From the NCBI GenBank assembly GCA_947624065.1, contig CANQIO010000006.1, positions 1 through 57,676 on the forward strand: DNA of 57,676 bases, in the 5' to 3' direction. Every line of letters starts with the position of its first letter. The first letter of the stretch is position 1. The notes below the pieces were generated by a model, which was given only the letters and a program-made list of their open reading frames with translations, was not told the origin of the DNA and made no database searches. This document shows, piece after piece, positions 3,638 to 26,193 of this stretch. Made by a program: the position numbers and the translations under genes. Source of the DNA: an uncultured Oscillospiraceae bacterium (lineage in GTDB: Bacteria; Bacillota; Clostridia; Oscillospirales; Oscillospiraceae).

Positions 3638-3640
3638 ATG

Positions 3641-5487: not shown

Positions 5488-5493
5488 GGCCCA

Positions 5494-8580: not shown

Positions 8581-8609
8581 AGCCTCCGCCCCCCCTCCGG
8601 GCATAGCAA

Positions 8610-8651: not shown

Positions 8652-8660
8652 GCCGTGATT

Positions 8661-8690: not shown

Positions 8691-8712
8691 CCTTCCGGTT
8701 TTTTTCCGGCCG

Positions 8713-9150: not shown

Positions 9151-9152
9151 GT

Positions 9153-10345: not shown

Positions 10346-10564
10346 TCACCGGGCCTCCGACTCAGCCTTTTCCTCCACGACCTCGCATTCCTCGGGCTTG
10401 ACCCCGACCTGGGCCAAACCGACCTTGATGAAGAACATCTCCGGCCGCCTGATGTTCTTGTATACTGGCCCGGCCGACTGTTGGAACACCACGTCATGCA
10501 CGCTCCCGACCTCCGGCCGTGCGTTCTTCTCCACCGGCAGCTGCTTTGTGATCCGGATCTTCAC
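10346..10564 (-). CDS. Small phage protein of unknown function
   Basis: The predicted protein has 72 residues from GTG at 10562-10564, which overlaps the stop of the J-domain gene (GTGA). It starts MKIRITKQLPVEKN and has a beta-rich middle (VHDVVFQQSAGPVYK) and an acidic tail. It looks like a small single-domain protein without membrane segments or Cys. Related small ORFs occur in Clostridia prophages, but no role is known to me. Confidence 0.6.
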   Translation of the reverse strand: MKIRITKQLPVEKNARPEVGSVHDVVFQQSAGPVYKNIRRPEMFFIKVGLAQVGVKPEECEVVEEKAESEAR

Positions 10565-11653: not shown

Positions 11654-11946
11654 GTCTGCGCCTCCTGTGGCCCGCGCCACACCGGGGCGCACACTTCACG
11701 ATCAGCACACCAGTCGCGGTCGTTTCCGCAAAACTCGCACCGAACACGCTCTCCATACAGCATCAGTTTTTCCAGGTCTGCTACCGCGGCGTCCAAGGTG
11801 GCCCGTACCTTCCGGTATTCGGCCGCCACCGTCCGAGCGGCTTCCTTGATGACCGCATCCATCTCATACCAGCCCTCTTTACGGGCGGCCATGGCCTTTA
11901 TCCGCGTCTCCGGGTCCACGATCAGCAACGCTTCATCAATATCCAT
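11650..11946 (-). CDS. Small phage protein with CxxC pair
   Basis: A 98-residue protein with a helical middle ([21 protein letters not shown]). The C-terminal region, [17 protein letters not shown], has four Cys that could bind zinc. Its stop overlaps the start of the frameshifted gene (ATGA) and it follows the DUF3102 gene by 3 nt. Function is unknown. Confidence 0.65.
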
Positions 11947-11949
11947 CGC

Positions 11950-12939: not shown

Positions 12940-14645
12940 GCTGCTTCGGTTCCTTTCTTTTTTCTCAGTTTCGGGGTCCCATCCTTCTTTCGGGGACTGC
13001 CACGCTTCAGCCAGTCCCGCCAGGTGTCGAAAAATGCCTTGTAGGTCACCAGCGGGGACTGCCCGAACACGTCGTTGCGGTACCCGTGGGCCTGGCGCAG
13101 CTGATCCCCGTCCATCTCCACCGTCACCAGCGGCCGCTCCGGGTGCTCAGCCTCCCGGAGAAAAAGGATCGTCGTCTTTCCCTCGATGTGCCGGGCAGCA
13201 TATCCTCCGACGCAGTGCTTGAGCACGTTTCCCTCGGCCACGACTTCCCCGTGCGTCCGTGCCACGCGGATGAACAGCCCATCCATGGCGAAATCGTATT
13301 TCAGCGCCCTATTTTCCAGGCTTTCCGCATATTCCCGCTCCTTCTCGAGCTGTCGCCGCTCAAGTTCGATCCGCTGCTTTTCCGCCGCCGCCGCGGCGGC
13401 CTCGTCGTGTCTGCGCATGAAGTCTTTCGGCAGCGCCACGGTCTCGTCCTTCAGGTCGTACCCCATCTCTGCACAGAAATCGAGGTAGTCCGTCCAGAGC
13501 TTATACCTCTGCCCACGTGTGATGCTGTATCTGGCACAAGGCGGCTTCTTGCTCAGCCAGCGCATGACGCGGGTGGGCTCCTGTCCCACGTGCCGGCACC
13601 GTTGCATGAATTTCTGGAACCCCTTGACGCCGCCGGGTACTGTGTAATCTATCTCCTTGGCCAGCGCAAAGCTGTACCGAAAACCGTTCCGACGCAGATA
13701 TTTGTAAATTTTCAGCAGGTCCAGGTCGTAATTTTCCGCGGCGAAGGCCCGCAGTTCCTGGCCGTCCAGCTCGAATGCCTTTTTCACGTCCGCCGCGCCC
13801 CATTTGTACACGTCGGCGTTTTTGCATCCCCGGTATACAAGGTCCCACACCATCTTCCCGGCCCCGCTCTTCAGCAGCATCTCCACGTCCCGCGGATAAA
13901 AGCAGCACGCGCCCAAAAAGCCCATCAGGCAGTTGTGCTTCGTCCCCTCGCCGTCCACGAACCGCTCATATCCGCAATAGCGGAATGCGCTTTTCCCGAT
14001 GGCATCCAGCCCAATCACACGGTAGGAAACATAACTGAACATACAGCCATATCCATCCGTGAACGGCTCCCTGATCCGCTGCTTTCTCGGTCTGTAATCC
14101 CCCTCGAACACCAAACGCTCTTCCCGGCCGCCGAACCAATAGCACGTAGCATCTACCCGGTCCGGCTTGAAGCTGTACGCATAGGTGATCTTGAATTCCG
14201 GCCCCAGCTGTTCCGCGCCCGGCAAATATCGCTTCCTCGCCCACGCGGCCATGGCCATAAGGCCGCCTTCCTTCTCCCGCAGGAAAACCACCGGCTCATA
14301 AACTTCTCTGCGAAAGCTGTCACGGGTACGCCCCGCGCACTTCACCGTCCCCTGTCGTCCGCAGAACGGGCAGACAGCCGTGTCGTTGTGCCGGGCGCGC
14401 ATCAGCGCCCAGAGCTCCGGCGTCTGCGTCCGCTCCAGCGCCGGATAGATGACCTCCCGCTGCCCGCAGCAGGTCGTCGTGATCCTCCGGCCGCCTTTGA
14501 CCGTTTTATAGAAGATGTACGGAGCAAACCAACTGTTGACCTCTGCGAGTTCCCTCTCTGTCGGCATCTGAAATCCTGGCAATGCCTCCAGCGTCTCCGG
14601 GAGCCTGGCCCCATAGCCGCTGATGCAATCGTCTCTTTCGACCAT
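12936..14645 (-). CDS. pcfJ: PcfJ-like protein
   Basis: A large 569-residue protein of the PcfJ family, first noted on conjugative plasmid pCF10. Cys residues around CCGQREV and CPFCGRQGTVKC (about 59-105) suggest a zinc ribbon. The C-terminal third carries the hallmark LKHCVGGYAARHIEGKTTI and then FLREAEHPERPLVTVEM. It is followed 13 nt upstream by a PcfK-like gene, as on plasmids. The biochemical function is unknown. It is the largest early gene of the phage. Confidence 0.88.
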   Translation of the reverse strand: MVERDDCISGYGARLPETLEALPGFQMPTERELAEVNSWFAPYIFYKTVKGGRRITTTCCGQREVIYPALERTQTPELWALMRARHNDTAVCPFCGRQGTVKCAGRTRDSFRREVYEPVVFLREKEGGLMAMAAWARKRYLPGAEQLGPEFKITYAYSFKPDRVDATCYWFGGREERLVFEGDYRPRKQRIREPFTDGYGCMFSYVSYRVIGLDAIGKSAFRYCGYERFVDGEGTKHNCLMGFLGACCFYPRDVEMLLKSGAGKMVWDLVYRGCKNADVYKWGAADVKKAFELDGQELRAFAAENYDLDLLKIYKYLRRNGFRYSFALAKEIDYTVPGGVKGFQKFMQRCRHVGQEPTRVMRWLSKKPPCARYSITRGQRYKLWTDYLDFCAEMGYDLKDETVALPKDFMRRHDEAAAAAAEKQRIELERRQLEKEREYAESLENRALKYDFAMDGLFIRVARTHGEVVAEGNVLKHCVGGYAARHIEGKTTILFLREAEHPERPLVTVEMDGDQLRQAHGYRNDVFGQSPLVTYKAFFDTWRDWLKRGSPRKKDGTPKLRKKKGTEAA

Positions 14646-14658
14646 CCCGCTCGCCCCC

Positions 14659-15027
14659 TCAGAAAAAGTCGCTCAGATCCAGCACCACACCCGGTGCCTT
14701 CGCCGATGCGGTCTCGCCCTTATCCCGGACACTGGCGCACAGATCTATGGCCATCTTCACGTCGATACCGGCCCCAGGAAAGTAGAACCGAACCGCCTCC
14801 ACATAGGCTTCCACGTCGCTGATGGCGTTCCCCTTGATCTTCTTGGCCACCGCCTTCATGCAGTCGGTGAAGCTTCCGCCCTGGACCACAGCCTGGGCGA
14901 ACTCCTCATTCTGGCGGCAGAAATCGATGAGCGCGTCGCGCACAGCGCCCTTCATGGCAACCCCGTAGCGGTCAAACTTCCCGCTTTTCTCCTCCTCCCG
15001 GAGCTTCTTTATAGCTTCGTTCATCAT
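14659..15027 (-). CDS. pcfK: PcfK-like protein
   Basis: The 122-residue protein starts MMNEAIKKLREEEKSGKFDR and contains IDFCRQNEEFAQAVVQGG and FTDCMKAVAKKIKGNAISD, the PcfK pattern. A helical N-terminal half is followed by an acidic end, VVLDLSDFF. It is paired with the PcfJ-like gene just downstream. This pair recurs on mobile elements, which suggests that the proteins act together, but no activity is known. Confidence 0.8.
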   Translation of the reverse strand: MMNEAIKKLREEEKSGKFDRYGVAMKGAVRDALIDFCRQNEEFAQAVVQGGSFTDCMKAVAKKIKGNAISDVEAYVEAVRFYFPGAGIDVKMAIDLCASVRDKGETASAKAPGVVLDLSDFF

Positions 15028-15069
15028 CCCTGATAGGGCCTCCTTTTCTTGATGTATGGTGGTATTCCG

Positions 15070-15279
15070 TTATAGATCCCCACCTTTACTGTCTTTGCAC
15101 TCCCGATGACGCCGGCAGCGCTCGACCTTTTCCCCGCGGCGCACTGTGCGCAGACGGCCTGTGTCGAAAAAATAAAGACACGCAAAGATGCTCCGCCCGC
15201 CGACGATAGGCCGCCAATGCCTGCATCCCTCGCATTCTGGCGAGGCGGAGCTATCTTCCCGACAGACTCCCTCGCTCAT
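15070..15279 (-). CDS. Small Cys-rich protein
   Basis: A 69-residue protein with C6, C16, C19 and C34 (SPECEGCRHWRP, FACLYFFDTGRLR) and a final CRRHRECKDSKG. The CxxC plus spaced Cys pattern matches small 'YxxDTGxxR' miniproteins of Clostridia phages. It overlaps the upstream gene by 4 nt. A zinc-binding role is likely, but the function is unknown. Confidence 0.65.
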   Translation of the reverse strand: MSEGVCREDSSASPECEGCRHWRPIVGGRSIFACLYFFDTGRLRTVRRGEKVERCRRHRECKDSKGGDL

Positions 15280-15581
15280 TGCCCCGGCTCCCGCAAATAA
15301 CGCCCGAAGGCGTTATTCAGTTCCTTGTGCTGGGCGTCCATGATTTGTGTCGCCGCAGTGAGCGTCTTTTCGATGATCGGTGTCCCGGACGGGATGAGAA
15401 CATGCTCGAAGATCTCATATCCGCTCCACCAGCACAGGGAAAACGTCCGCCCCCTGGTATAGCTGAAACTGTACTCCCGCGCGCTCTGCCGCTCGTTCTC
15501 CTGGTCGACCTGGTCGATCAGCTTGCGGAGCAATACCCGGCAGTAGTCGCGCATGACCGGCGTCTGTTTGTCTTTTCCCAT
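15276..15581 (-). CDS. Phage protein of unknown function
   Basis: A 101-residue, mostly helical protein (MRDYCRVLLRKLIDQVDQEN) with an aromatic middle (FSLCWWSGYEIFEHVL). AAGGAG lies upstream of ATG 15579-15581. It is the first gene after a 183-nt gap that contains the inverted repeat at 15614-15642. It has no recognised family. Confidence 0.6.
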   Translation of the reverse strand: MGKDKQTPVMRDYCRVLLRKLIDQVDQENERQSAREYSFSYTRGRTFSLCWWSGYEIFEHVLIPSGTPIIEKTLTAATQIMDAQHKELNNAFGRYLREPGQ

Positions 15582-15613
15582 GACTTTCTCCTTGTCCTCC
15601 CACGCTCTTCATG

Positions 15614-15642
15614 GTAAAATAGCAACGGTATTGCTATTTTAC
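15614..15642. repeat. Perfect 12-bp inverted repeat, possible operator or terminator
   Basis: GTAAAATAGCAA (15614-15625) is repeated inverted at 15631-15642 around a 5-nt loop. It is AT-rich in a GC-rich phage and lies in the noncoding gap 15582-15764, about 33 nt before an ORF start. It differs from the CI/Cro operators. The gap also has AT-rich ATAATATAA near 15692 but no convincing promoter. Confidence 0.6.
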
Positions 15643-15764
15643 AAAAATACCGGTCGCGCTCCCGGCTGACGCCGGAACCGCGCGACATGGCATAATATAA
15701 GCAAGCCGCACTTTTTCTCTGCCGCCGCCCGGTGTTCCAGCACCGGACGGCGGTATCCTTGTCC

Positions 15765-16508
15765 TTACAGGGCGATGACCACGTCGCCGTTCTTCACCTC
15801 ATCTTCGAGGCGGTCGGCCAGCCACTCCGCCACCGTCTGCCGGGCGGTCAGCTTCCACATCCCACCGTCGGCCTCGATGAAGGAGATCCCCCGTTCGTCG
15901 ATCCGGATGAGGAAAAGCCCCTCCGGCTGCTCCACCTCCTGGAAGGTCCGATAGGGCCGCAGCTTCACCAGCGGCTTGATCTGCGAATTCTCCTGCAGCA
16001 CGACCCCTTTGCTCGTCACCACGTTCGTGGCCACGCCGATGTCGTTATAAGTCACCTTCACGCCGGTGGTGATCATGCTGAGCAGCTGGATGGTATAATC
16101 CCGGTCTCCTCCTTCCTGGAACCGCGTCTGCAGCGCTACCGCCGCCTGCTCGAATGGCATTTTCACCTCCGGAGCCCAGCCCGGCACATCTGCTGCTGTG
16201 GCTTTATAAAGCATCGGCCGATGGCACTGGCATGCACTGGGCATGACGGTGCAAAAAGCTCTCACGGTCAGGGGATCCGGAACGGTGATATAGATTGGGC
16301 TCTCCGCGCGGTAGGGGCTCGACAGGCCCTCGGAGCGTACCATCTTCACCATCGCGTCCAGGCTCGTCAGCGGCAGCTCCTCCGGCACCTCCACATCCGG
16401 CTTCACCTCGCCGTATGTAGCCCCGTCCGCGAAGAACGTGTGCCCATTCACCTCAAAGATCTTCGGGCCTGCCATCTGCTCGATCTTTTCGACAAATTCT
16501 TTCAGCAT
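15765..16508 (-). CDS. Early phage protein, DUF2303/YfdQ-like
   Basis: The 247-residue protein resembles phage proteins of the DUF2303 type. An N-terminal MLKEFVEKIEQMAGP is followed by FEVNGHTFFADG, a middle with TVRAFCTVMPSACQC, and an acidic C-terminal end (WLADRLEDEVKNGD). There is no catalytic signature. It shares a block with the 125-residue gene upstream, a pairing common in Clostridia prophages. A role in early DNA metabolism is only a guess from position. Confidence 0.6.
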   Translation of the reverse strand: MLKEFVEKIEQMAGPKIFEVNGHTFFADGATYGEVKPDVEVPEELPLTSLDAMVKMVRSEGLSSPYRAESPIYITVPDPLTVRAFCTVMPSACQCHRPMLYKATAADVPGWAPEVKMPFEQAAVALQTRFQEGGDRDYTIQLLSMITTGVKVTYNDIGVATNVVTSKGVVLQENSQIKPLVKLRPYRTFQEVEQPEGLFLIRIDERGISFIEADGGMWKLTARQTVAEWLADRLEDEVKNGDVVIAL

Positions 16509-16523
16509 GTTTTATCCCTCCTG

Positions 16524-16901
16524 TTATGCGGATTTGATCACTTTCAGCTGTGGCGCCGGTCCCTGATCGCCGCCAAGCAAGCTCGTCTGTCCGGGGATCT
16601 GCGGCGTCATCTCCGTGGCAACGACGCCATCGGCGCCCGCGTGCAGGTACAGCGCCGTCCTCACGGGGCTGGTCGTCGCCAGCGCGCTCTTCACCTGGGC
16701 GGACACCTCCACCGTCTGGCGGTAGTCGTCCGGCTTGAACTCCAGTGTGACGCTCAGCTTGCGCGCGGCGGTGGCCTTGGTGTTCACGTCCAGGATATTT
16801 TCCAGGATGCGGGACATCTCATAGTCCACCAACTCCTGGATGCCCCCCCTGGCCATCTCCAGAATGCTCTTGATGTTTACCTCGTGCTTTAGCTCATCCA
16901 A
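16524..16901 (-). CDS. Early phage protein of unknown function
   Basis: The 125-residue protein starts at TTG 16899-16901, with AGGAGC 8-10 nt upstream. A first helix (IKSILEMARGGIQELVDYEM) leads to KATAARKLSVTLEFKPDD, a beta-rich region, and a Gly/Pro-rich end with QIPGQTSLLGG. This arrangement is widespread in Clostridia phages directly before DUF2303-like genes. I know no experimental function. Confidence 0.6.
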   Translation of the reverse strand: MDELKHEVNIKSILEMARGGIQELVDYEMSRILENILDVNTKATAARKLSVTLEFKPDDYRQTVEVSAQVKSALATTSPVRTALYLHAGADGVVATEMTPQIPGQTSLLGGDQGPAPQLKVIKSA

Positions 16902-17169
16902 CCTCTTTCGCTCCTTTCATCAGCATTTCCCAGTGATTCAGTCCCCTGGCTGTCCGCCGCGCGGAGAACTCGCTCTCACACCAGCCGATCTTCCCGTTGG
17001 GGTAATGATACCGGTTCTCCGGGCGGTCCGGTGCCGCCGGGTCCTTCAGCCGGTAGACCACCCACACGTGCGCCTCGCCGCTCTCATCGCGGCGAAGCAT
17101 TTTTCGGACCCGCCAAGGGCCCTCCCGCGCCGGCGGGTCATCGCCGCGCCTCATGGCCTGTCCGTCCAT
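16894..17169 (-). CDS. Small phage protein of unknown function
   Basis: The 91-residue protein starts at ATG 17167-17169, with AGAGGGGG upstream; a TTG at 17194 is a weaker option. It is basic and contains VWVVYRLKDPAAPDRPENRY and a C-terminal NHWEMLMKGAKE. The end overlaps the next gene by 8 nt. No family is recognised; it may bind nucleic acid given its charge. Confidence 0.55.
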   Translation of the reverse strand: MDGQAMRRGDDPPAREGPWRVRKMLRRDESGEAHVWVVYRLKDPAAPDRPENRYHYPNGKIGWCESEFSARRTARGLNHWEMLMKGAKEVG

Positions 17170-17182
17170 CCCGATCCCCCTC

Positions 17183-17440
17183 TCAGCCGACGCCAAAAAC
17201 GCCGGGGTAGTCGCGCTCGAAGCCGTCCCGATGGCCGGGACTCAGGGCTGCCATATTCTCCATCCACCCTCTGTATGTCGCGTCCGGCCATGGTGTGGGC
17301 GCCGGCGGCGCCGGGCGCATGGTCCAGGAGCCAGCCAGCAGCATGACCGCGGCCGCCGCGGCCAGGGCCAGCGCCTTCGCCCGCCGGCGGAGCTTCCGCC
17401 GCCTCTGGCGGGGCCCGGCTATGACTGACCGTTTGCGCAT
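17183..17440 (-). CDS. Small membrane-anchored phage protein
   Basis: The 85-residue protein starts at ATG 17438-17440 behind AGGAGGTG. A very basic N-terminus (RQRRRKLRRRAK) precedes one transmembrane segment (ALALAAAAAVMLLAGSW, about 24-40). A Pro-rich linker and a short outer domain (YRGWMENMAALSPGH) follow. It is a type II or uncleaved-signal membrane protein with unknown role. Its 5' end overlaps the Lar-like gene by 22 nt. Confidence 0.6.
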   Translation of the reverse strand: MRKRSVIAGPRQRRRKLRRRAKALALAAAAAVMLLAGSWTMRPAPPAPTPWPDATYRGWMENMAALSPGHRDGFERDYPGVFGVG

Positions 17441-17655
17441 GTGGCTCGCACCTCCTCTGCATATCGCTCCATCGCCGCCCAGGCTGTGAGCGCCTTTTCC
17501 TGCGTCAGGTGCGGGCCTGTCCTCCGGCCGCACACCGGGCACCGGATGAACCACGTCCGCGTCTCCCGCCCGTACAGCTCTTCCGCCAGGCTCCCGCATC
17601 CGCTGCACCGGGGCTGATCGAGCGCCGGTACCTCCCGCAGATCAGGCTCGTCCAT
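17419..17655 (-). CDS. Lar-like zinc-ribbon protein
   Basis: The 78-residue protein has CSGCGSLAEELYG, then WFIRCPVCGRRTGPHLTQ and AWAAMERYAEEV. This is the CxxC, CxxCG, GP, A-x-W pattern of the Lar restriction-alleviation family and related phage zinc ribbons. Lar itself relieves type I restriction; whether this protein does so is unknown, since the fold is widely reused in phages. Confidence 0.65.
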   Translation of the reverse strand: MDEPDLREVPALDQPRCSGCGSLAEELYGRETRTWFIRCPVCGRRTGPHLTQEKALTAWAAMERYAEEVRATCANGQS

Positions 17656-17806
17656 CTTCGCTGCCTCCCCGCCGGGCCCGGCCCATCAACCAGCCGATGC
17701 GCCCCACGGCCATCACCAGCGCCGCGGCGCCGATGATCGCCATCCCCGGCGCCAGCTTGTCCCATATGCCGGCAGCCGCCAGCATCAGCATCTCCCAGAT
17801 CATCAT
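17642..17806 (-). CDS. Small membrane protein
   Basis: The 54-residue protein starts at ATG 17804-17806 behind AAAGGAG. Its start overlaps the stop of the Cys-rich gene upstream (ATGA). Hydrophobic stretches WEMLMLAAAGIWDKLAPG and MAIIGAAALVMAVGRIGW suggest one or two membrane passes, followed by a basic tail. Function is unknown. Confidence 0.6.
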   Translation of the reverse strand: MMIWEMLMLAAAGIWDKLAPGMAIIGAAALVMAVGRIGWLMGRARRGGSEDGRA

Positions 17807-17982
17807 CCATTTCTCCTTTCTTTGAACACGGTACATTCCTCTCCTCGGGGGCATGTCCGCACCCGGCCTGTCCGCATCCGGTAGGTGCAGCAGAGCATCA
17901 GCTCGTGCCCGTCCCCCACCGTCACCGTCCCTCCATACCAGCACCGCCGGCATCGCTCCAGCGGGTCCTTCCGCGCCGTCAT
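17803..17982 (-). CDS. Cys-rich miniprotein (59 residues)
   Basis: A short ORF from ATG 17980-17982 with GGGAGG upstream, overlapping its neighbours by 4 nt on both sides (ATGA), which makes it a real gene. The sequence contains CRRCWYGG, LMLCCTYRMRTGRVRTCP and EECTVF, so six or seven Cys. The CxxC, CxYxLxTGxxRxCPxGxxC pattern recurs in Clostridia phage miniproteins and suggests a zinc site. Function is unknown. Confidence 0.75.
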   Translation of the reverse strand: MTARKDPLERCRRCWYGGTVTVGDGHELMLCCTYRMRTGRVRTCPRGEECTVFKERRNG

Positions 17983-18167
17983 AATGATGCCTCCCCCTGC
18001 TGAGCCGGACGGAAAACCGCCTTCCCGGCGAACATCCCGTTGAGGTAATCCACCTTCAACCGTGTGGCCAGCTCCACTTTTTTCTCGGGCGGCAGGGTGT
18101 CCACGTCCACCAGCTCGTCGCCCACATGCACAAACGCCTTCACGGTGATCTTCTGCTGCTTTTTCAT
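17979..18167 (-). CDS. Small early phage protein
   Basis: The 62-residue protein starts MKKQQKITVKAFVHVGDELV and has PPEKKVELATRLKVDYLNGM. It is a compact mixed alpha/beta protein without Cys. The ATG follows AAAGGAGG. Similar short ORFs are common near the start of early operons in Clostridia phages, with no known role. Confidence 0.65.
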   Translation of the reverse strand: MKKQQKITVKAFVHVGDELVDVDTLPPEKKVELATRLKVDYLNGMFAGKAVFRPAQQGEASL

Positions 18168-18231
18168 CCTGCCGCCCTCCTTTCTGTCAGCCTATTCGCC
18201 CGCCGGGATGTCCTATGCCCGCCGGCGGCCG

Positions 18232-18384
18232 TCAGTCCTCCGGATACGCGATCCGGCACAGCGCCACGAACTCATCGAAGGTCAGGTCGCCCTCCTGCTC
18301 CGCGCGGTGCAGGATCAGCTCCTTGAGCCTGGGCCCCGCGTGCTCCAGCTCCGCCTTGTAGGCTTCATAGGTGTTCTCTGCCAT
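18232..18384 (-). CDS. Small acidic early protein (50 residues)
   Basis: The 50-residue protein starts at ATG 18382-18384, preceded by AAAGGAGGG. It is helical and acidic (MAENTYEAYKAELEHAGPRL and FDEFVALCRIAYPED). It is the first gene of the long minus-strand early run beyond the inserted plus-strand gene. No function is known. Confidence 0.65.
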   Translation of the reverse strand: MAENTYEAYKAELEHAGPRLKELILHRAEQEGDLTFDEFVALCRIAYPED

Positions 18385-18403
18385 GTTGTCCCTCCTTTCT
18401 GTC

Positions 18404-18432
18404 TTGTCCGCCTCCCGCTCCTGTGGTAGAAT
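18404..18432 (+). promoter_or_regulatory. Promoter for the HEHYH gene
   Basis: TTGTCC (18404-18409), a 17-nt spacer and TAGAAT (18427-18432) lie 24 nt before the ATG, with AAAAGGAGG between them. It gives the plus-strand gene its own start, independent of the repressor promoter. Confidence 0.6.
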
Positions 18433-18455
18433 CGGAGCAAAAGGAGGCGTGTTGA

Positions 18456-19217
18456 ATGAATATCCTAGGCCAGGAAATTTCCAAAGAAACCGCTGCTGAA
18501 CTTGAACGTATATATGACCATATCGGCCACAAAGTCGATTACGTTCCGCTCCCTCTCGATAACCCGATTGGTTTTGGCCGCGCCGACTGGACCACTGCGC
18601 CAAATTGGACCGTTTCATCTGTTACCGATCTCCCTCAGCACTATTTCGAGGCCAACCTTTTGCATGAGCATTACCACCTATGCCAAATTGCGGAAGGCTT
18701 TCCGCGGACAAATACCAAGATTATCCCTGGTATTTCTTCGACGGACCAGCAGGCCATCGACACCGCCGGCGGGGCTCTCACCTCTGTGATCTTTGATCTT
18801 GATGTCTGCGACAGAATCGCGGCCTTCGGTCTGGACTCGGATCACTTCTTCAACGTTCGGAACCAGCAAGCCCTGAAATTTGGCCTTCCCATCGGAAATA
18901 TCTCTCGCCCTAACAAGGTCCTTTTCACAGTCCGCACTGCCGGGCTCATCCTCCAAAACCCTACCTGGCAGGTAAACATGATCCTTCCGCGCTTCCGTGC
19001 CCAAAACAGGCAGATCACTCAGCGTGCAGAGAACCTTGCCAACAGGATAAGGAAACTCGACCACAGCACACCTCTCGGCTGCTTTGAGTGTCTTGTTATT
19101 GGATACGATTACCTAAGCCTCTGGGACTGGCAGCTCATTCGATTTCATGACCACATCTTCACTTCACATGAACAGGCGCATACGTTTCTGTCGTCGTACC
19201 ATCAGGATTCCATGTGA
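18456..19217 (+). CDS. Zincin-like protein (HEHYH), candidate lysogenic-conversion gene
   Basis: The 253-residue protein has a perfect HExxH zinc motif at 70-74 (ANLLHEHYHLCQ). About 40 residues on, ALTSVIFDLDVCDRIAAFGLD could supply a third ligand (D115 or D117). There is no signal peptide or membrane segment. The gene points opposite to the early operon that flanks it on both sides, has its own promoter and is visibly AT-richer than its neighbours; all three are moron traits. It may be a metallopeptidase. Substrate and role are unknown. Confidence 0.7.
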   Translation: MNILGQEISKETAAELERIYDHIGHKVDYVPLPLDNPIGFGRADWTTAPNWTVSSVTDLPQHYFEANLLHEHYHLCQIAEGFPRTNTKIIPGISSTDQQAIDTAGGALTSVIFDLDVCDRIAAFGLDSDHFFNVRNQQALKFGLPIGNISRPNKVLFTVRTAGLILQNPTWQVNMILPRFRAQNRQITQRAENLANRIRKLDHSTPLGCFECLVIGYDYLSLWDWQLIRFHDHIFTSHEQAHTFLSSYHQDSM

Positions 19218-19344
19218 TCATGTGTCCGCATTTCGTGCAGCAGACCGCCAGGCCGAAGATCCTCTCACAGGCCACATAGTTATGCTCGCATTTCGTTGCC
19301 CGCCCCGGCCCTTCCCCGGCCGGGGCGGCCTTTTTCTCATCCAT
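19159..19344 (-). CDS. Small Cys-rich protein next to cro
   Basis: The 61-residue protein starts at ATG 19342-19344, with AAAGGAG 10 nt upstream (a GTG at 19351 is the alternative). It contains KCEHNYVACERIFGLAVCC and TKCGHMITWNPDG, so five Cys that suggest a zinc ribbon. It follows cro and overlaps the 3' end of the convergent plus-strand gene by 59 nt, so the two transcripts are partly antisense. Confidence 0.6.
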   Translation of the reverse strand: MDEKKAAPAGEGPGRATKCEHNYVACERIFGLAVCCTKCGHMITWNPDGTTTETYAPVHVK

Positions 19345-19349
19345 CCCGC

Positions 19350-19580
19350 TCACGCTCCTTTCTGCTTCTCCTCAGTGAATAAGTACTTCACATCCAACTC
19401 CGGGAAAAAGGTCTGCTGGATCAGAAAGGCCTCGTCCAGGTTGATTTGAGACCGCCTTGACAATTTTCTCGCCAGGGTGTCCCGGTTCCACCCAAGGTCC
19501 CTTGCCATCTTCACGACCCCAATATTTCGCCTACTCATCTCAGCTCGAAGGTTGGCAAATGCAATATTGCTTGCCCGCAT
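19350..19580 (-). CDS. Cro-like repressor
   Basis: The 76-residue protein is mostly an XRE-type helix-turn-helix: EMSRRNIGVVKMARDLGWNR, DTLARKLSRRSQI and LDEAFLIQQTFF. It is divergent from the CI-like gene across the operator region and its ATG overlaps one operator copy (19577-19585). By position it is the lytic repressor, first gene of the leftward early transcript. GTGA overlap links it to the next gene. Confidence 0.85.
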   Translation of the reverse strand: MRASNIAFANLRAEMSRRNIGVVKMARDLGWNRDTLARKLSRRSQINLDEAFLIQQTFFPELDVKYLFTEEKQKGA

Positions 19581-19684
19581 TGCGTATTCCTCCTTTCGCG
19601 CATTGCGTTATTTCAAGCAAAGAATATCACGCATTGCAAGATTCGTCAAGCATTTTCTTTAAAATTTTTCTTGCAATGCGTGAT
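19577..19684. promoter_or_regulatory. CI/Cro operator region with four GCATTGC sites
   Basis: Four copies of an ACGCATTGC(A/G) element are visible at 19577-19585, 19599-19608, 19629-19638 and, inverted, 19672-19681. The last two extend to a perfect 16-bp inverted pair (19626-19641 and 19669-19684). They overlap the cro start, the cro promoter spacer and the -35 of the CI promoter, as expected for a lysis-lysogeny switch. Confidence 0.85.
19621..19649 (-). promoter_or_regulatory. Leftward (cro/early) promoter
   Basis: On the minus strand: TTGACG (19644-19649), a 17-nt spacer, TATTCT (19621-19626). An operator copy fills the spacer, so repressor bound there would block the early transcript. 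Confidence 0.82.
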
Positions 19685-19699
19685 TATTCGTGCTATTGT
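19671..19699 (+). promoter_or_regulatory. Rightward (CI repressor) promoter
   Basis: TTGCAA (19671-19676), a 17-nt spacer and TATTGT (19694-19699) precede the repressor gene. The -35 lies inside an operator copy, so autoregulation is likely. Confidence 0.82.
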
Positions 19700-19722
19700 A
19701 GTTATGAAAGGTGGTCATGCTG

Positions 19723-20475
19723 ATGGAATTCTATAAGATTTTGGAGAACATCATGCTCCAAAAAGGCTTGAGTATAGCTGATGTAGCAAGAATGTGCGAT
19801 CTTTCCGATTCGACTGTCCGGAGCATCATTGATAGAAAGCAGAAGAAGGTTGCCCTAAATGTCGCCTTCAATCTATCCGATGGCCTCAATGTGCCACTCG
19901 AGAGGCTCGCAGGGATTCAAACCCCTGCCGAGAAGAAAAAAGGCCTTATTCTTTCTGACGAATCAATGGAAGTTGCAAAAAAATATAATAGCCTTGATGA
20001 CCACGGCCAAAAAGTCGTTTCTACGGTTTTGGATTATGAGGTCAAGCGCCTCTTGGAAGAAGGGCAGCGCCCGGAGAAGGTGGTGGAGCTGTTCCCAACC
20101 AGGAAGTATCTCCAGTCCGCCACCGCCGGCTATGGTGACTTCAACGACGACGCCTCCTATGAGATGGTGGATCTGGTGAAGCGCCCGCCCGTGGGGACCT
20201 CGTTCATCGTCACCGTCAACGGCGACAGCATGGAGCCCACCTACCACGACGGGGACCAACTGTTCGTCCGGGCCCAGGAGCGCGTCGAGCTTGGCGACGT
20301 TGGACTGTTCACCCAGGGACCGAAACTTTACATCAAAGAATCCGGCCCCGAAGGCCTGGTGTCCTACAATAAGGAGTACGCTCTCATCACCGGCACCGAC
20401 GACGAGCCCATTCTCGCCCAAGGCAAGATTCTGGGCGTGTGTTCAGAGGATTACTTGCCCTCATCGGCACAGTGA
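19723..20475 (+). CDS. CI/LexA-like repressor with S24 peptidase domain
   Basis: The 250-residue protein has an N-terminal XRE HTH (SIADVARMCDLSDSTVRSII, about 17-36). A C-terminal S24 autopeptidase has cleavage site A135-G136 (QSATAGYGDF), catalytic S169 (VNGDSMEPTYHDGD) and K205 (LYIKES). It maintains lysogeny and should self-cleave on RecA activation, making the phage SOS-inducible. I chose ATG 19723, since AAAGGTGG lies 8 nt upstream; ATG 19717 and GTG 19711 are too close to it. Confidence 0.93.
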   Translation: MEFYKILENIMLQKGLSIADVARMCDLSDSTVRSIIDRKQKKVALNVAFNLSDGLNVPLERLAGIQTPAEKKKGLILSDESMEVAKKYNSLDDHGQKVVSTVLDYEVKRLLEEGQRPEKVVELFPTRKYLQSATAGYGDFNDDASYEMVDLVKRPPVGTSFIVTVNGDSMEPTYHDGDQLFVRAQERVELGDVGLFTQGPKLYIKESGPEGLVSYNKEYALITGTDDEPILAQGKILGVCSEDYLPSSAQ

Positions 20476-20490
20476 GGTGAAATAGGCGCC

Positions 20491-21633
20491 ATGGCAAGAA
20501 AGAGACGCAAAAAGAAGGACGACTCCTTGATCTCAACTATCCTAGCTTATATAATCACGGCTGTGATATTCTTCTATATCCTTCGCTGGCTTCTTCGTTT
20601 GGTCTTTCACATCGTTTTCAGCCCCGCAGTCATTTTCGCCGCCATTGGCACCGCCGCAATCGTCGGAATCGCTGTGCTTATAACACGGAGGCGCGAGGCT
20701 GTTCGAAATACAGTGCAGGCTGATGGTCCCCAGAATGATGGCAGAGAAGCTTCCTTTGAAGAAGATGTCGCTCCTTTTGCCCCCATGCAGTCTGTCGAAC
20801 CTCTTACCGTAGAAGATCCCGTCCCATCGGTGCCCGTGTCCTCTGAAGCATACGTCCCTTTTGCTCCCTCACAGTCTGCCGAGCCTCTTGCCGTAGAAGA
20901 TTTCGTCCCGTCGGTGCCCGTGCAACCCTTAAAGAATCATCTCCATTATTCTGAACAGTTTGACCATCAGCAAAAGAAGAAAACTCCTCCCACCGCCCTA
21001 AGCGACGATTTTCTGGAGCAAATACGCTATGACGAGGCGATTTGGCGCCGTGAGCAAATAAAGCAAGCTTCTTTGGACCCCCCTGAAGAAGTCGTTCCCA
21101 ACTTTGTTGACTGCCCCGCATGTGGTAAACTTATCAGCACCAAGGCTCTCTTCTGCCCCCACTGCGGCTGTTCCGTCAAACAGGCGCCCCCGACAGCCAC
21201 GCCTTCCTCTCCGGTTGGTTCTTTCCTCCATATCGCGGGGCTTGACCTCCAAAAGGGCACGTTCTGCTCTCTGTCACGCTCTCCCGAGTTTATCTCCATG
21301 AATGCCCCGTCCCGCTCTTTCCACCTGTCCCAAGATAGCATTCATGACGTGTTTGTCATCCCATATAGCAAGCTTATATCCCTCTCCAACGATGTCTATA
21401 CCAATGAGCAGATCAGCCAGTCGGTCAAAGACACGTTGAAAACGACCATCGAAATTTCCTCTAAAAAGCGGTTCATCCAGCCACATACCAGGTTTATGCT
21501 CATCACCTACACCGGCGAAGATGAAGTAGATCACGTCATCACATTCCAACTAAATGACGGGAACGCCAAGGCCGCCCAGCAGTTCGCGTCCCAGTATGCC
21601 GAGCAGGCAGAGCACGATGATGTGTTCCTGTAA
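20491..21633 (+). CDS. Membrane zinc-ribbon protein, candidate lysogeny gene
   Basis: The 380-residue protein has two transmembrane segments (about 14-40 and 46-64). A Pro/acidic linker contains a 28-residue tandem repeat (VPFAPSQSAEPL type; ccttttgc recurs 84 bp apart at 20773 and 20857). Then comes a zinc ribbon, CPACGKLISTKALFCPHCG (about 210-228), and a C-terminal beta-rich domain of about 140 residues. It lies 15 nt after the repressor gene and is probably co-expressed in the lysogen. Superinfection exclusion or host modification is possible but unproven. Confidence 0.72.
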   Translation: MARKRRKKKDDSLISTILAYIITAVIFFYILRWLLRLVFHIVFSPAVIFAAIGTAAIVGIAVLITRRREAVRNTVQADGPQNDGREASFEEDVAPFAPMQSVEPLTVEDPVPSVPVSSEAYVPFAPSQSAEPLAVEDFVPSVPVQPLKNHLHYSEQFDHQQKKKTPPTALSDDFLEQIRYDEAIWRREQIKQASLDPPEEVVPNFVDCPACGKLISTKALFCPHCGCSVKQAPPTATPSSPVGSFLHIAGLDLQKGTFCSLSRSPEFISMNAPSRSFHLSQDSIHDVFVIPYSKLISLSNDVYTNEQISQSVKDTLKTTIEISSKKRFIQPHTRFMLITYTGEDEVDHVITFQLNDGNAKAAQQFASQYAEQAEHDDVFL

Positions 21634-21635
21634 AC

Positions 21636-21674
21636 AAAAAAACGCCGCCCCCGGTGGGGACCACCGGAAACGGC
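21636..21674 (-). terminator. Hairpin with A7 tract; minus-strand terminator
   Basis: The nested stem (21644-21647 with 21671-21674; 21651-21657 with 21661-21667) is preceded by A7 on the plus strand, so it is a T7 terminator for minus-strand RNA. The 20-bp start of this element recurs at 21998-22017. Confidence 0.6.
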
Positions 21675-21696
21675 ACAGCAAGAAAGGAGACCCCCC

Positions 21697-21999
21697 ATGT
21701 TAGAAAAACAAGACCTGCAGGCCATCAAGGAACTGATCGACACTTCCGTCACCACTGCCATTGCCGCCTCCGAGGAGCGCATGTCGGCAAAGATCGACGC
21801 CTCGGAAAACCGCATCATGGCCTACATCGAGAACGCCGTCATGCCGAACTTCAAGCTGCTGGCCGAAGGCCACCAGACCTTGCTGGATACTCTGGCCCGG
21901 AAAGATCGAGTGGAGGCGCTGGAAGAGGAAGTCGTGTTTTTGAAATCCGTCGTCTCCGCCCTGGCCCAGGATGTGACCGAGCTGAAAAAGGCCCAATAA
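21697..21999 (+). CDS. Small coiled-coil phage protein
   Basis: The 100-residue protein starts at ATG 21697 behind AAAGGAG. It is almost entirely helical, with heptad patterns in ASEERMSAKIDASENRIMAY and VEALEEEVVFLKSVVSALAQ. Similar small coiled-coil proteins are common next to integrases in Clostridia prophages. It could be a structural or regulatory adaptor. A role as recombination directionality factor is possible only by location. Confidence 0.65.
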   Translation: MLEKQDLQAIKELIDTSVTTAIAASEERMSAKIDASENRIMAYIENAVMPNFKLLAEGHQTLLDTLARKDRVEALEEEVVFLKSVVSALAQDVTELKKAQ

Positions 22000-22036
22000 A
22001 AAAACGCCGCCCCCGGTCTCGCACACCGGGGACGGC
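21998..22036 (-). terminator. Second copy of the A7 hairpin; minus-strand terminator
   Basis: A7 plus CGCCGCCCCCGGT (21998-22017) repeats the 21636 element exactly. It then forms its own hairpin ending at 22036 with a different loop. On the minus strand this gives a stem followed by T7. It protects the gene pair from transcripts coming from the integrase side. Confidence 0.6.
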
Positions 22037-22121
22037 AACGTAGAAAACCACCCAAACCGCCTAGGGGATCGTCTACCCCTTTATGGTACCATATCCCCTC
22101 AAAAATTGCAAGGAGGACCCC

Positions 22122-23600
22122 ATGGCTGCACCCTCTCCCCGTACCGCGGCGGCCTACATCCGTGTGTCCACCGAGGACCAAGCGGATCAGTCGCCCGAGA
22201 GCCAGCTTATTGAAATACGAAAATATGCCGCCCGGAACGGCCTCATCCTGCCGGACAACCTGGTCTTTGTCGACGAGGGCATCTCCGGCAAGCGGTCCGA
22301 GAACCGGCCGGCCTTCCAGCAGATGATCGGCACCGCCAAAGAAAAGCCCGCTCCTTTCGACGTGCTTCTCCTCTGGAAGTTCAGCCGGTTCGCCCGGAAC
22401 CAGGAAGAGAGCATCGTCTATAAGTCGCTTCTGCGGAAACAATGCGGCGTCGACGTGGTGTCCGTGTCTGAGCAGCTGCCCGAAGGCCCCTTTGCCTCCC
22501 TGATCGAGCGCATCATCGAGTGGTTCGACGAGTTTTACTCCATCCGCCTCTCTCAGGAAGTCAAGCGCACCATGGCCGTCAAAGCCGGCCGCGGGGAATT
22601 CCAATCCTCGCCTCCCTTCGGCTATCGGGCCCGGATCATCCCTGGAAAAAAAACGGTGTTGGAACCCATCCCCGAGGAAGCGGAGCTCGTTCGGCAGATC
22701 TTTGACCGGTTCAACCGCGGCGAGGGAGTATACGTCATTGCCCGGTGGCTGAACTCCCTGGGGATCACCACACACCGGGGAAACGCTTTTGAGAACCGCA
22801 CCGTGGAGTATATCCTTCGGAACCCGGTCTATATTGGAAAGCTCCGGTGGACACCCACGGGCCGCACCCGAAGGGATTTTTCCAATCCGGACACCATCCT
22901 GGCGGACGGCGAGCATGAGCCTCTCATCACCCAGGAGACCTTCGACGCCGCGCAGACGAACATTGCCCGAATCAAGGCCGTCTGGGGTTACAAAGCCCGT
23001 CCAACCTACGAGCTGAAGGACTGGCTCAGCGGTCTCGTCCGCTGCGCCGCATGCGGAGGCACTCTCATCTTCCAGAGACCTCACTACTTCAAGTGCAACA
23101 ACTACATGCGTGGGCGGTGCACCTGCTCGCAACATATTCGGATCGACTTGCTGCATGGGGCGATCACAGAACGCCTCATGCAGGACATGATCGGCAGCAA
23201 CACCCTGGACTGCGCTGTCGTGCAGTCGGAGGCAGAGCAAAGCGGAGAGCTGCCCCGGCTGCGCACTACCCTCACGGATCTCCGCCGGCGTGACGCGCGA
23301 CTGCTGGACGCATACCTGGGAGGTGCTGTCGACCTTGCACAGTTCTCCACTGCAAAGTCCAGTCTTGACTCGGAAATCGCAGACATTGAGGAAAGGATCG
23401 CTTCTCTGGAGTCCACCACCGCAGACCCGGATGCCGTCCGTGCAGCTTTGACCTCCCGCATCCGCGAGGCTTACGATACTATCTCCGCCCCAGATGCCTC
23501 TCTGGAAGAGAAAAATACTGCGCTCCGCAATATTACGGAACGCATCACCTTTGATAAAAGCCAAATGGTCATCAATATTACATACCGTGTTTTTTTGTAG
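22122..23600 (+). CDS. Large serine integrase
   Basis: The 492-residue protein starts at ATG 22122 behind AGGAGG. The N-terminal resolvase domain has AYIRVSTEDQADQSPESQ with catalytic S16, VDEGISGKRSENRPAF and LLLWKFSRFARN. A recombinase domain follows (GYRARIIPGKKTVLEPIPEE; ARWLNSLGITTHRG). The zinc-ribbon domain has CAACGGTLIF and CNNYMRGRCTCSQH, then a coiled coil (LTDLRRRDARLLDAY). It integrates the phage at the adjacent dyad inside cotJC. SpoIVCA and SprA, which excise skin and SPbeta, belong to the same family. Confidence 0.96.
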   Translation: MAAPSPRTAAAYIRVSTEDQADQSPESQLIEIRKYAARNGLILPDNLVFVDEGISGKRSENRPAFQQMIGTAKEKPAPFDVLLLWKFSRFARNQEESIVYKSLLRKQCGVDVVSVSEQLPEGPFASLIERIIEWFDEFYSIRLSQEVKRTMAVKAGRGEFQSSPPFGYRARIIPGKKTVLEPIPEEAELVRQIFDRFNRGEGVYVIARWLNSLGITTHRGNAFENRTVEYILRNPVYIGKLRWTPTGRTRRDFSNPDTILADGEHEPLITQETFDAAQTNIARIKAVWGYKARPTYELKDWLSGLVRCAACGGTLIFQRPHYFKCNNYMRGRCTCSQHIRIDLLHGAITERLMQDMIGSNTLDCAVVQSEAEQSGELPRLRTTLTDLRRRDARLLDAYLGGAVDLAQFSTAKSSLDSEIADIEERIASLESTTADPDAVRAALTSRIREAYDTISAPDASLEEKNTALRNITERITFDKSQMVINITYRVFL

Positions 23601-23606
23601 CCAGCA

Positions 23607-23720
23607 TTATAGTCTATAACAGTATGGTCCACCGTACTGGCTGATGATATACTTGGCCATGGCGGGGTTGGGATTCTTGATCCGCACGGGATACTGCAGC
23701 TTTTTTTCATATACGAACAT
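23607..23720 (-). pseudogene. cotJC: cotJC 5' fragment, interrupted by the prophage
   Basis: The first 32 codons of CotJC are present: MFVYEKKLQYPVRIKNPNPA, then MAKYIISQYGGP, matching the conserved N-terminus of this spore-coat, manganese-catalase-like protein. After GGP the frame reads YCYRL and stops, where the full protein needs about 150 more residues. The ATG overlaps the stop of cotJA-cotJB (TAATG). The break coincides with the dyad at 23620-23639, so the rest of the gene should lie past the left end of the prophage. Confidence 0.93.
23620..23639. other. Attachment site (prophage/host junction, right side)
   Basis: CAGTATGGTC (23620-23629) faces CACCGTACTG (23630-23639), an inverted repeat matching at 8 of 10 positions. 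It lies 20 nt after the integrase stop, exactly where CotJC homology ends. Serine integrases cut at the centre of such dyads. The crossover dinucleotide should be near 23629-23630. Confidence 0.8.
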
Positions 23721-24124
23721 TATTTCTTACCTGCCTTTCCGCCGTTCCAGGGCCAGGGGCCCTCGGGCCAGACCCAGCAGTCGAATTTGGCCGTGTCGGA
23801 GCGCGTCACTGGGCCGTACATCTCCACATAGCGCTTGCGTCCCTCCTTGGCCAGGGCGCTGAAGCTCTTCCAGGTCTTGAAAGCGTCCTTGTCGTCGGGA
23901 TGGGTGTCCAGGTACAGCGCCAGCTCCTGGCAGACGAAATCCAGGGCCATCAGCTCGGCCTGGGGCGTGTTCTCCACAGGACCGACGGCCACGTAATCCA
24001 TAAAGGGCAGATCCAGCCCCGGGAACAGCGTGCCCTTGGCCAGGGCGTCGGCGCTGTCGTAGGCCGGCTCGCTGCACGGCTGGGCGGCCAGCATCGGCAC
24101 GGCCAGCGGCGCGCAGGAAGGCAA
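23720..24124 (-). CDS. Fused CotJA-CotJB spore coat protein
   Basis: The 134-residue protein starts at TTG 24122-24124, with AAGGAGG 5 nt upstream; an upstream TTG at 24161 lies in the ligA terminator and is unlikely. The first part has the CotJA signature GTLFPGLDLPF (about 37-47). From ELMALDFVCQELALYLDTHP onward it is CotJB, ending YGPVTRSDTAKF and WPEGPWPWN. Normally these are two genes. There is no stop between them here, so they are one polypeptide. It forms part of the CotJ coat complex made in the mother cell. Confidence 0.87.
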   Translation of the reverse strand: MPSCAPLAVPMLAAQPCSEPAYDSADALAKGTLFPGLDLPFMDYVAVGPVENTPQAELMALDFVCQELALYLDTHPDDKDAFKTWKSFSALAKEGRKRYVEMYGPVTRSDTAKFDCWVWPEGPWPWNGGKAGKK

Positions 24125-24162
24125 GGCGCCCTCCTTATAGGTGCAGGAATCTTTATCTTGCA

Positions 24163-24203
24163 AAAAAATTTCCCCCTTTGCATGCCATACTATGCAAAGG
24201 GGG
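24163..24203 (-). terminator. ligA intrinsic terminator
   Basis: A perfect 12-bp stem (24172-24183 with 24192-24203), an 8-nt loop and, on the minus strand, AAA then T7 follow the ligA stop codon. It separates ligA from the cotJ genes, which must have their own promoter. Confidence 0.88.
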
Positions 24204-24219: not shown

Positions 24220-26193
24220 TCAGTCCTTGATGAGCTCGGCGAAATCGGTCTCACTGATGATGGGGATGCCCAGGGCCTCGGCCTTGGCGAGCTTGGAGCC
24301 GGGATCGGCGCCGGCCAGCACATAGGAGGTCTTTTTGGACACGGAGCCGGAGGCCTTGCCGCCGAAGCGCTCGATGATTTCCTCCGCCTGGGAACGGGTG
24401 AAGTGCTCCAGCGCGCCGGTGAGCACAAAGGTCTTGCCGGCAAAGCGGTCGTCCGCGATCTCCTCCCGGCTCTCAAAGGACACGCCCGCCTCCCGCAGCC
24501 GCCGGATCAGGTCCTGGCTCTGGTCGGCGGCGAACCAGTCGGTCAGGTATTTGGCCGTGACGGCACCCACGTCATCGATGGCGGTCAGCTGCTCCTCGGT
24601 AGCGGCCATGAGCTCGTCCAGGGTGGCAAAGCGCCTGGCCAGGACCTTGGCCGCCTTTGCCCCCACCTGCCGAATGCCGAAGGCGCACAGCAGCCGCGCC
24701 AGTCCCCGGTCTTTGCTCTGCTCCAGATTGGCGATGAGATTCTCCGCGGACTTCTTCCCCATCCGCTCCACGGCCGCCACGGACTGGGGCTCCAGGTAAT
24801 AGAGCTCCGCGGGGGTCTTGATGAGCCCGGCCCGATCCAGGGCCTCCACCACCGCCGGGCCCAGCCCGTCGATGTCCATGGCGTCCTTGGAGGCAAAGTG
24901 GACGATATTGCGCAGCCGCTGGGCCGGGCATTCCGCGCCGGTGCAGCGGATGGCCGCGCCGTCCTCGTCCCGGACCACCGGCGCGCCGCAGGCGGGACAG
25001 ACCGTGGGGAACCGGAAGAAGCCCTCGCTGTCCTTCTTCACGACCTCCAGCACCTCGGGGATGATCTCCCCCGCCTTTTGGACCAACACCGTGTCCCCCA
25101 CGTTCACGCCCATGTTCTCGATAAAGTCCTGGTTGTGAAGGGTCGCGTTGGTCACGGTGGTGCCCGCCAGACGGATGGGCTCGATGACGGCTTTTGGCGT
25201 CAGCACACCGGTGCGCCCCACCTGGATGACGATGTCCAGCACCCGGCTGGGCTTCTTCTCCGGCGGGTATTTATAAGCCACCGCCCAGCGGGGATACTTG
25301 GCGGTGCTGCCCAGCTGCCGGCGCTGGGAAAGGTCGTTGAGCTTGACCACCGCACCGTCGATATCGAAGGGATAGCCCTCCCGCCCTTCGCCGATGGCGT
25401 CGATCGCCGCCGTGCACTCCGCCGGGGTCTTGCAAAGGGTATGGTCCACCACGGGAAAGCCCATGGCCGCCATGGCCTCCAGCGTCTCATAGTGCTCCTG
25501 ATAGGTCACGCCCTCCGCCAGCTGGATGTTGAAGAAGATCACATCCAGCATCCGCTGGGCGCAAACGGCCGGGTCCTGCTGACGCAGAGAGCCGGCGGCG
25601 GCGTTGCGGGGGTTGGCCAGGAGCGGCTGCCCTTCCAGCTCCCGCTGGGCGTTGATGGTCCGGAAGGTCTCGTGGGACATATAGACCTCCCCCCGGACGA
25701 TGAGCCGTTCAGGGGCGTTTTGGATCGTCTTGGGCAGGCTCCGGATGGTGCGCAGGTTCTCCGTCACATCTTCCCCCACCTCGCCGTTGCCCCGGGTCGC
25801 GCCCCGGAAAAAGACGCCGTTTCTGTATTCCACCGCCACGGACAGCCCGTCGATCTTCGGCTCGGTCACGTAATCGTGGGGCGCGTCGACAGCGGCGTCC
25901 ATCCGCTCCACAAAGCCTGCAACCTCTTCGAAGGAGAACACATCCTGCAGGCTCTCCAGCGGCACCTCATGGGCCACCGGCGCGAAGGCCTCGCTCACAT
26001 GCCCGCCCACATGCTGTGTCGGCGAGTCCGGCCGGATCCAATCCGGATGGGCCGCCTCCATGGCCTTGAGCTCGTTGTTCATCCGGTCATACTCAAAATC
26101 GGACACCAGCGGCGCGTCATTGTCGTAATAGGCCACGGAAAGGGCAAGCAGACGCTCCACCAGGGCGTTGTATGACTCGATCGTATAGTCCAT
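24220..26193 (-). CDS. ligA: NAD-dependent DNA ligase
   Basis: The 657-residue protein seals nicks in replication and repair using NAD. The order is the Ia domain (YYDNDAPLVSDFEYDRM), adenylation with active-site Lys in VTEPKIDGLSVAVEY (about 111-125), GATRGNGEVGEDVTEN, an OB fold and a zinc finger (CPACGAPV, CTGAECPAQ). Then come HhH repeats (KDAMDIDGLGPAVVEAL) and a C-terminal BRCT domain (FVLTGALEHFTRSQAEEIIE). The length is normal and all motifs are present. Confidence 0.97.
   Translation of the reverse strand: MDYTIESYNALVERLLALSVAYYDNDAPLVSDFEYDRMNNELKAMEAAHPDWIRPDSPTQHVGGHVSEAFAPVAHEVPLESLQDVFSFEEVAGFVERMDAAVDAPHDYVTEPKIDGLSVAVEYRNGVFFRGATRGNGEVGEDVTENLRTIRSLPKTIQNAPERLIVRGEVYMSHETFRTINAQRELEGQPLLANPRNAAAGSLRQQDPAVCAQRMLDVIFFNIQLAEGVTYQEHYETLEAMAAMGFPVVDHTLCKTPAECTAAIDAIGEGREGYPFDIDGAVVKLNDLSQRRQLGSTAKYPRWAVAYKYPPEKKPSRVLDIVIQVGRTGVLTPKAVIEPIRLAGTTVTNATLHNQDFIENMGVNVGDTVLVQKAGEIIPEVLEVVKKDSEGFFRFPTVCPACGAPVVRDEDGAAIRCTGAECPAQRLRNIVHFASKDAMDIDGLGPAVVEALDRAGLIKTPAELYYLEPQSVAAVERMGKKSAENLIANLEQSKDRGLARLLCAFGIRQVGAKAAKVLARRFATLDELMAATEEQLTAIDDVGAVTAKYLTDWFAADQSQDLIRRLREAGVSFESREEIADDRFAGKTFVLTGALEHFTRSQAEEIIERFGGKASGSVSKKTSYVLAGADPGSKLAKAEALGIPIISETDFAELIKD

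Follow-up and report, generated by a model that had tools for sequence, protein, structure and literature searches.

A prophage and a second small recombinase element divide the spore-coat gene cotJC in an uncultured Oscillospiraceae bacterium

The stretch of DNA analysed here (the window) is an entire contig, C6, of 57,676 bp, from a draft assembly of 81 contigs that is 75% complete. On its minus strand, an open reading frame (ORF) running from 23720 to 23607 reads MFVYEKKLQYPVRIKNPNPAMAKYIISQYGGPYCYRL* directly from the sequence and consists of cotJC codons 1-32 followed by phage codons up to the stop. The following features lie at and around this frame:

1..23624, no strand assigned: one end of a prophage, recognised by its phage genes; the contig stops inside the phage, and the other end is L004:10860-14423 on contig C49
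994-1509: head-tail adaptor, prophage gene
1919-2791: capsid, prophage gene
3907-5487, minus strand: minor capsid (Phage_min_cap2)
6879-8117: terminase, prophage gene
17982..18191, minus strand: small ORF, by guess a candidate accessory or directionality factor; ORF clustering shows it conserved in 5 of the 16 stretches of site-1 elements
19711-20475: CI-like repressor, prophage gene
22083..23600, plus strand: large serine integrase of the site-1 clade, 505 aa, likely start 22122 (Pfam Resolvase/Recombinase/Zn_ribbon_recom; tree)
23607..23624, minus strand: phage-derived codons past the junction (YCYRL, then stop), read from the sequence, without cotJC homology
23625..23633, minus strand: attachment core GGTGGACCA, codons 30-32; the cotJC remainder on contig C49 opens with the same core
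23625..23720, minus strand: cotJC 5' piece, codons 1-32 (MFVYEKKL...SQYGGP); cotJC profile positions 1-32, 54.3 bits; PF05067 E 1.5e-7
23720..24163, minus strand: fused cotJA-cotJB ORF directly upstream of cotJC (Pfam CotJA 19-54, CotJB 70-140)
24220..26193, minus strand: ligA, chromosomal flank (tblastn 82% to L116/L117)

An earlier note on this DNA had claimed that cotJC is split by a prophage carrying a serine integrase and that the homology stops at the phage boundary after SQYGGP, and both claims were borne out. A cotJC profile made from 20 intact relatives matches codons 1-32 only, the Pfam family Mn_catalase (PF05067) matches the same stretch (E 1.5e-7), and the profile comparison places the end of the homology after GGP. 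The 5' piece is followed by phage genes, and the integrase ends 24 bp away from it on the opposite strand; many of the named closest relatives of this integrase are Oscillospiraceae. Terminase, capsid, repressor, integrase and lysis gene together form the gene set of a tailed temperate phage with a serine integrase. The tape-measure family PF10145 gave no match in the phage, the middle of which is either unassembled or unrecognised. The minor capsid protein has an Ntox50 domain at its C terminus (Pfam E 1.1e-22), and the small ORF at 17982..18191 matched no Pfam or NCBIfam family convincingly.

When the entire assembly was searched with PF05067, three places were found (C6:23625-23720, C49:10512-10853 and C49:7205-7360) and no intact second cotJC elsewhere in the 75% complete assembly. 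The note had expected the rest of the gene beyond the left end of the window. A remainder in frame at the same core does exist, but the window is the whole contig, and the remainder was found on C49 instead of to the left. This second piece (L004:10859->10518, minus strand) is in frame from the same GGTGGACC core, follows a phage amidase gene of the same strand at a distance of 73 bp, and is broken again at codon ~135, where an element of 3.2 kb separates it from the last piece (L004:7363->7166). The 3.2 kb element encodes a second serine recombinase (L004:7378-8958) with a DUF4368 domain and 23% identity to the window integrase, and also a metallo-beta-lactamase-fold protein. Across this element the residues ..DMGAEQKAR.. 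stand in register and are the same as in the intact congener G095, and frame and length of the junction match the intact congener; the core shared in register is 2 bp only (GA). Both prophage junctions carry GGTGGACCA at identical codons. Joining the pieces at the cores restores the frame at both breaks and gives a gene of 198 codons. The cotJC of this genome is present in three in-frame pieces, cut once by a prophage and once more by a small second element. The idea that a single phage excision would restore the gene had to be given up, because the second element, with another recombinase, splits it too.

Two intact congeners (G095, G163) have cotJABC between ligA and pfk; here, ligA stands beside the 5' piece on C6 and pfk beside the 3' piece on C49. 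Towards the C6 end the phage genes are ordered terminase, capsid, head-tail adaptor, and the amidase gene is on C49. C6 and C49 tie to one locus because ligA and pfk flank cotJABC in the intact congeners and the phage gene order is plausible. Compared with both congeners L116/L117, the cotJABC block is inverted relative to ligA (24220-26193) and pfk (L004:5850-7157). The same two congeners match the CotJA-CotJB fusion ORF (23720-24163) over all 147 residues.

Split copies of cotJC are widespread in the family. In a sample of 200 genomes, PF05067 matched 161; G003 and G056, with weak matches around profile positions 12-83 judged from the match table to be a Pfam match and not cotJC, were dropped, leaving 159. 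At least 54 of these 159 cotJC-bearing genomes (about a third) have a split gene, with four recurrent break places at codons ~31, ~62-66, ~135 and ~175 (sites 1 to 4), which account for 18, 32, 11 and at least 8 splits, respectively. At least 15 of the 54 genomes are split at two sites, and two of sites 1-3 are split in seven genomes (G024, G029, G052, G111, G142, G143, G150), the other eight being those with a displaced 3' end at site 4. All split genomes were counted from fetched stretches (53 of 54) except G132, which was counted from the re-search for whole pieces, its stretch not having been fetched. This re-search for all pieces covered 69 of the 161 matched genomes (57 + 12), and the rest were judged from the first search table. 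Left out of the counts were G023 and G165 (breaks at contig ends) and G173 (second copy ambiguous). The split counts are lower bounds, because splits at site 4 only fall outside the search. The absence of stops in the pieces was not counted as evidence, since the pieces were sought in open frames. An intact cotJC is also present in 5 of the 54 split genomes (G001, G038, G061, G132, G193), and a serine recombinase lies in the fetched stretch of 50 of 53, in G193 outside the element.

Two loci deserve separate mention. In G143 (L063, L064, L065), cotJC is in three pieces, the last of which is inverted and lies 17 kb from the first, by inversion or assembly error. G061 (L051) has the smallest site-1 element (1.9 kb) with a short recombinase ORF of 337 aa; this genome has an intact cotJC too, and its split copy is possibly freed from selection.

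Site 4 corresponds to codons 172-176 (RFGEA). Among 11 split genomes with an early-stopping gene, a displaced 3' end was found in eight (G017, G039, G053, G058, G061, G067, G091, G189), seven of which have the shared site-4 core, the body in G189 being without the core motif. The search for displaced ends found none in G198 and G024, and the piece in G001 stops at the contig end. In two genomes with an intact 3' end (G000, G150) the end proved to be in place. In four genomes a recombinase of another group lies beside the displaced end; the loci with a recombinase group of their own at this site are L038:7444-9033, L100/L322, L050/L325, L102/L327 and L059/L329.

As a control, the spoIVA ATPase domain (237 positions, about half of the protein) was internally interrupted in none of 114 matches among 140 family genomes, the partial matches being three contig ends and one frameshift. 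In a class-wide sample, PF05067 was present in 105 of 147 genomes, among the matches listed. In 15 of the 31 class-wide genomes from which stretches were fetched, a recombinase of the group expected for the site lies at most 250 bp from the break (17 breaks); for G213 and G314 the identity is as low as 34% and 29%. Splits also occur in single-contig genomes (G098, G229, G315) and in named isolates, and the loci with cotJC pieces include Pseudoflavonifractor gallinarum DSM 107456, P. phocaeensis An569 and Petroclostridium sp. X23. For the genome studied here, an assembly or binning artefact, that is chimeric contigs or contaminating phage, might be suspected in a draft of 81 contigs and 75% completeness with the two halves on different contigs. 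With similar splits in so many genomes, including single-contig ones and named isolates, and with cores and flanking genes in agreement, we regard such an artefact as scarcely credible.

We compared 49 junctions of sites 1-3, this genome included, for the longest run of nucleotides shared in register. The medians are 5.5 (site 1), 6.5 (site 2) and 5 (site 3), compared to a mean longest run of 1.75-1.93 in controls slid in frame, and 30 of the 49 junctions exceed every slid control. Runs are shorter than 5 in 14 of 49 junctions; in several of these the residues encoded are the same and the differences sit at third codon positions, which is what drift of the two ends after insertion would produce, and one (G181) was misplaced by the alignment. 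The shared cores are not chance, because GGTGGACCA stands at the same codons on both sides and the runs beat the slid controls.

In a tree of 60 recombinases, labelled by the adjoining break, the recombinases group by break site. Those of site 1 form one clade (18 rows, support 100/99), and 9 of 10 rows of site 3 form another (100/100), the tenth (L090, G099) being badly aligned (18% of columns). A single clade for site 2 had to be rejected, as five rows (100/100) form a second lineage beside the 25 rows (97/91) of the first; for this five-row lineage the core lies a few codons further on. Two further recombinases, traced to site 4, pair at 98/100. G188 (L106, L107) has recombinases of both site-2 lineages, one on each side of the break, which suggests two elements a few codons apart within one gene. 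In a longer list of site-1 integrase relatives on genome contigs, 62 of the best 80 lie at most 200 bp from a cotJC piece and 18 lie elsewhere, some of them because the contig ends; L128 and L130, with integrases 62% and 57% identical, adjoin other sequence than cotJC. From these numbers, the site-1 integrase family prefers cotJC without being restricted to it.

A search for directionality factors by ORF clustering returned mostly overlapping or antisense frames of the recombinase, and one small ORF family for each of the site classes 1-3. Besides the site-1 ORF listed above, small conserved ORFs lie near site-2 recombinases (L044:3565-3780 and relatives, 14 of 29 element stretches) and near site-3 recombinases (L073:5653-5802, 5 of 11 element stretches). 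Both are candidate directionality factors, and neither matched Pfam or NCBIfam above the cut-off. A promoter scan with a sigma-E consensus, taken from general knowledge, had low power: hits were found in 1 of 16 (site 1), 4 of 30 (site 2; shuffled mean 0.6) and 0 of 9 (site 3) cases, and in only 10 of 81 for cotJ as positive control (shuffled mean 3.6).

The reading that we favour, with a probability of roughly 0.7, is that cotJC is put together again by site-specific excision when the cells sporulate, probably in the mother cell. A different view would take cotJC as a plain hotspot for prophages and mobile elements, that is a conserved but dispensable gene, with excision at induction or rarely, and without a role in sporulation. 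The window phage with its head, packaging, repressor and integrase genes fits this view, and so do the viral contigs. Seven IMG/VR contigs (L209-L212, L214, L215, L217) encode integrases 49-50% identical to that of the window and have, by eye, a closed symmetric attP beside the integrase, so that phages of the family excise anyway; these are other phages than the present one. No cotJC piece was found in the stretches of these seven contigs, which run 6 kb past attP, and in the two tested (L209, L217) the far side of attP encodes proteins of phage families of unknown function. Other viral contigs carry cotJC pieces. Therefore, such phages occur both integrated in cotJC and with attP closed. Also, C. 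difficile mutants in two CotJC-like genes are stated to have less catalase activity and no significant coat defect (PMC11222575).

Size and conservation of the elements point the other way. Many elements are only 2-10 kb long, by their size too short for a complete tailed phage, yet keep a full-length recombinase ORF; just 2 of the 60 recombinases in the tree are clearly short. In the sister species G053/G198 the element is 85.6% identical end to end (4,756 aligned bp), while cotJC has 100% protein identity over 158 codons and pN/pS 0.008. For G098/G166 the whole element aligns at 64% (cotJC pN/pS 0.168), and for G131/G192 the recombinase half only aligns well, with dS 0.47 for the recombinase and 0.46 for cotJC (pN/pS 0.141). 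The other cotJC values are 0.026 (G066/G145), 0.059 (G075/G151), 0.196 (G024/G183) and 0.087-0.161 in three pairs of genus g38. These nine pairs are same-genus and split at the same site, with synonymous sites near or past saturation in 4 of 9. Five intact same-genus pairs gave 0.011-0.209, and two cross-genus comparisons gave higher values of 0.33 (39 codons) and 0.41. The cotJC studied here is 83% identical to intact congeners (pN/pS 0.15-0.165). Copies of cotJC that seem to have been split for long are under purifying selection. For the shared elements, the best explanation is that the common ancestor already had the split and that selection on the gene has continued; renewed infection by related elements is a conceivable alternative. 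With elements shared by sister species and selection on cotJC within the range of intact copies, we consider a mere hotspot unlikely.

Besides the PF05067 family match, the cotJC pieces have conserved metal-ligand columns, which we take to be E35, E65, H68, E136 and H169. Split pieces keep E35 (45/45), H68 (45/45) and H169 (47/47), and nearly always E65 (43/45) and E136 (42/48), with the exceptions at junctions. As site-1 splits leave all presumed ligands in the 3' part, one could imagine that the downstream piece works alone, translated from a start within the element, and in several site-1 3' pieces an ATG or TTG does lie a few codons ahead of codon 30. However, the 5' pieces are conserved too, with a mean agreement with the consensus of 0.80 in 17 site-1 split copies vs 0.71 in 32 intact ones, and splits at sites 2 and 3 separate the ligands, this genome having a site-3 split as well. 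A downstream piece acting on its own is therefore very improbable.

Excision that restores the whole gene during sporulation remains the explanation we prefer. The earlier suggestion of restoration survives in so far as the comparative evidence favours maintained, excision-restored genes; one excision is insufficient here. In the proposed course of events, cotJC, which encodes a manganese-catalase-like protein of the spore coat, would be a preferred target of several large serine recombinase lineages. The prophage would have integrated at codons 30-32 and the 3.2 kb element at codon ~135, giving three in-frame pieces, and as long as both are in place no complete CotJC protein should be made. 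During sporulation, each recombinase together with a directionality factor would excise its own element precisely at the core. Both excisions would then rebuild the 198-codon gene, most likely in the mother cell only, and thereby the forespore chromosome would keep the elements. Timing, cell type and directionality factor are proposed by analogy with skin, SPbeta and gin. The genome encodes spo0A and spoIVA as well as a sigK-like gene that is unsplit and scores below its curated cut-off.

With somewhat less confidence, we also think that the cotJC of Clostridia is probably a standing split gene. Four or more recombinase lineages, unrelated or distantly related, would use the stretches of it that are most conserved and presumably bind metal, often two of them within a single gene; the hosts would depend on precise excision, and the elements would shrink while the gene is kept. 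Should excision rebuild cotJC in about one third of the sampled species, programmed excision would be common in clostridial sporulation, different mobile elements would have converged on a single host gene and been drawn into its expression, and tests would be possible in named isolates. The result also yields several serine recombinase families with mapped attachment sites, and it is a warning that annotation can miss coat genes that lie in pieces.

DNA rearrangement during the development of spore-formers is on record for a handful of genes. The cotJC elements belong to a known kind, the intervening elements of sporulation genes; the literature searched (open-licence papers, without supplements) contained no account of such an element within cotJC, and this variant is absent from it. 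The C. difficile phage phi027 was considered as a precedent and rejected, as its attP has none of the present cores and the catalase gene, according to the description, is adjacent. A close parallel is skin, a serine recombinase element in the mother-cell gene sigK of B. subtilis and C. difficile that is excised precisely, which rebuilds the gene (PMC5025042, PMC4191935). Like skin, the cotJC elements are serine recombinase elements inside a sporulation gene; they differ in that two elements with unrelated recombinases are present here and that several sites recur in many genera. SPbeta is a prophage integrated in a spore-surface gene as in cotJC, namely spsM of B. subtilis, and its excision has been demonstrated (PMC4191935), whereas gene and integrase are others here and excision from cotJC is proposed. 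Intervening elements have also been described in gerE (gin), spoVFB (vfbin), spoVR (vrin) and yabG (yin), and gin shows that elements other than phages can act in this way (PMC5595907, PMC10747680, PMC4191935). Those cases concern particular strains and other genes, whereas about one in three of the sampled cotJC-bearing genomes of the family has a split cotJC. In heterocysts, excision of interruption elements at differentiation restores the host genes nifD, fdxN and hupL (PMC4874684, PMC4191935), in Cyanobacteria and in other genes than cotJC.
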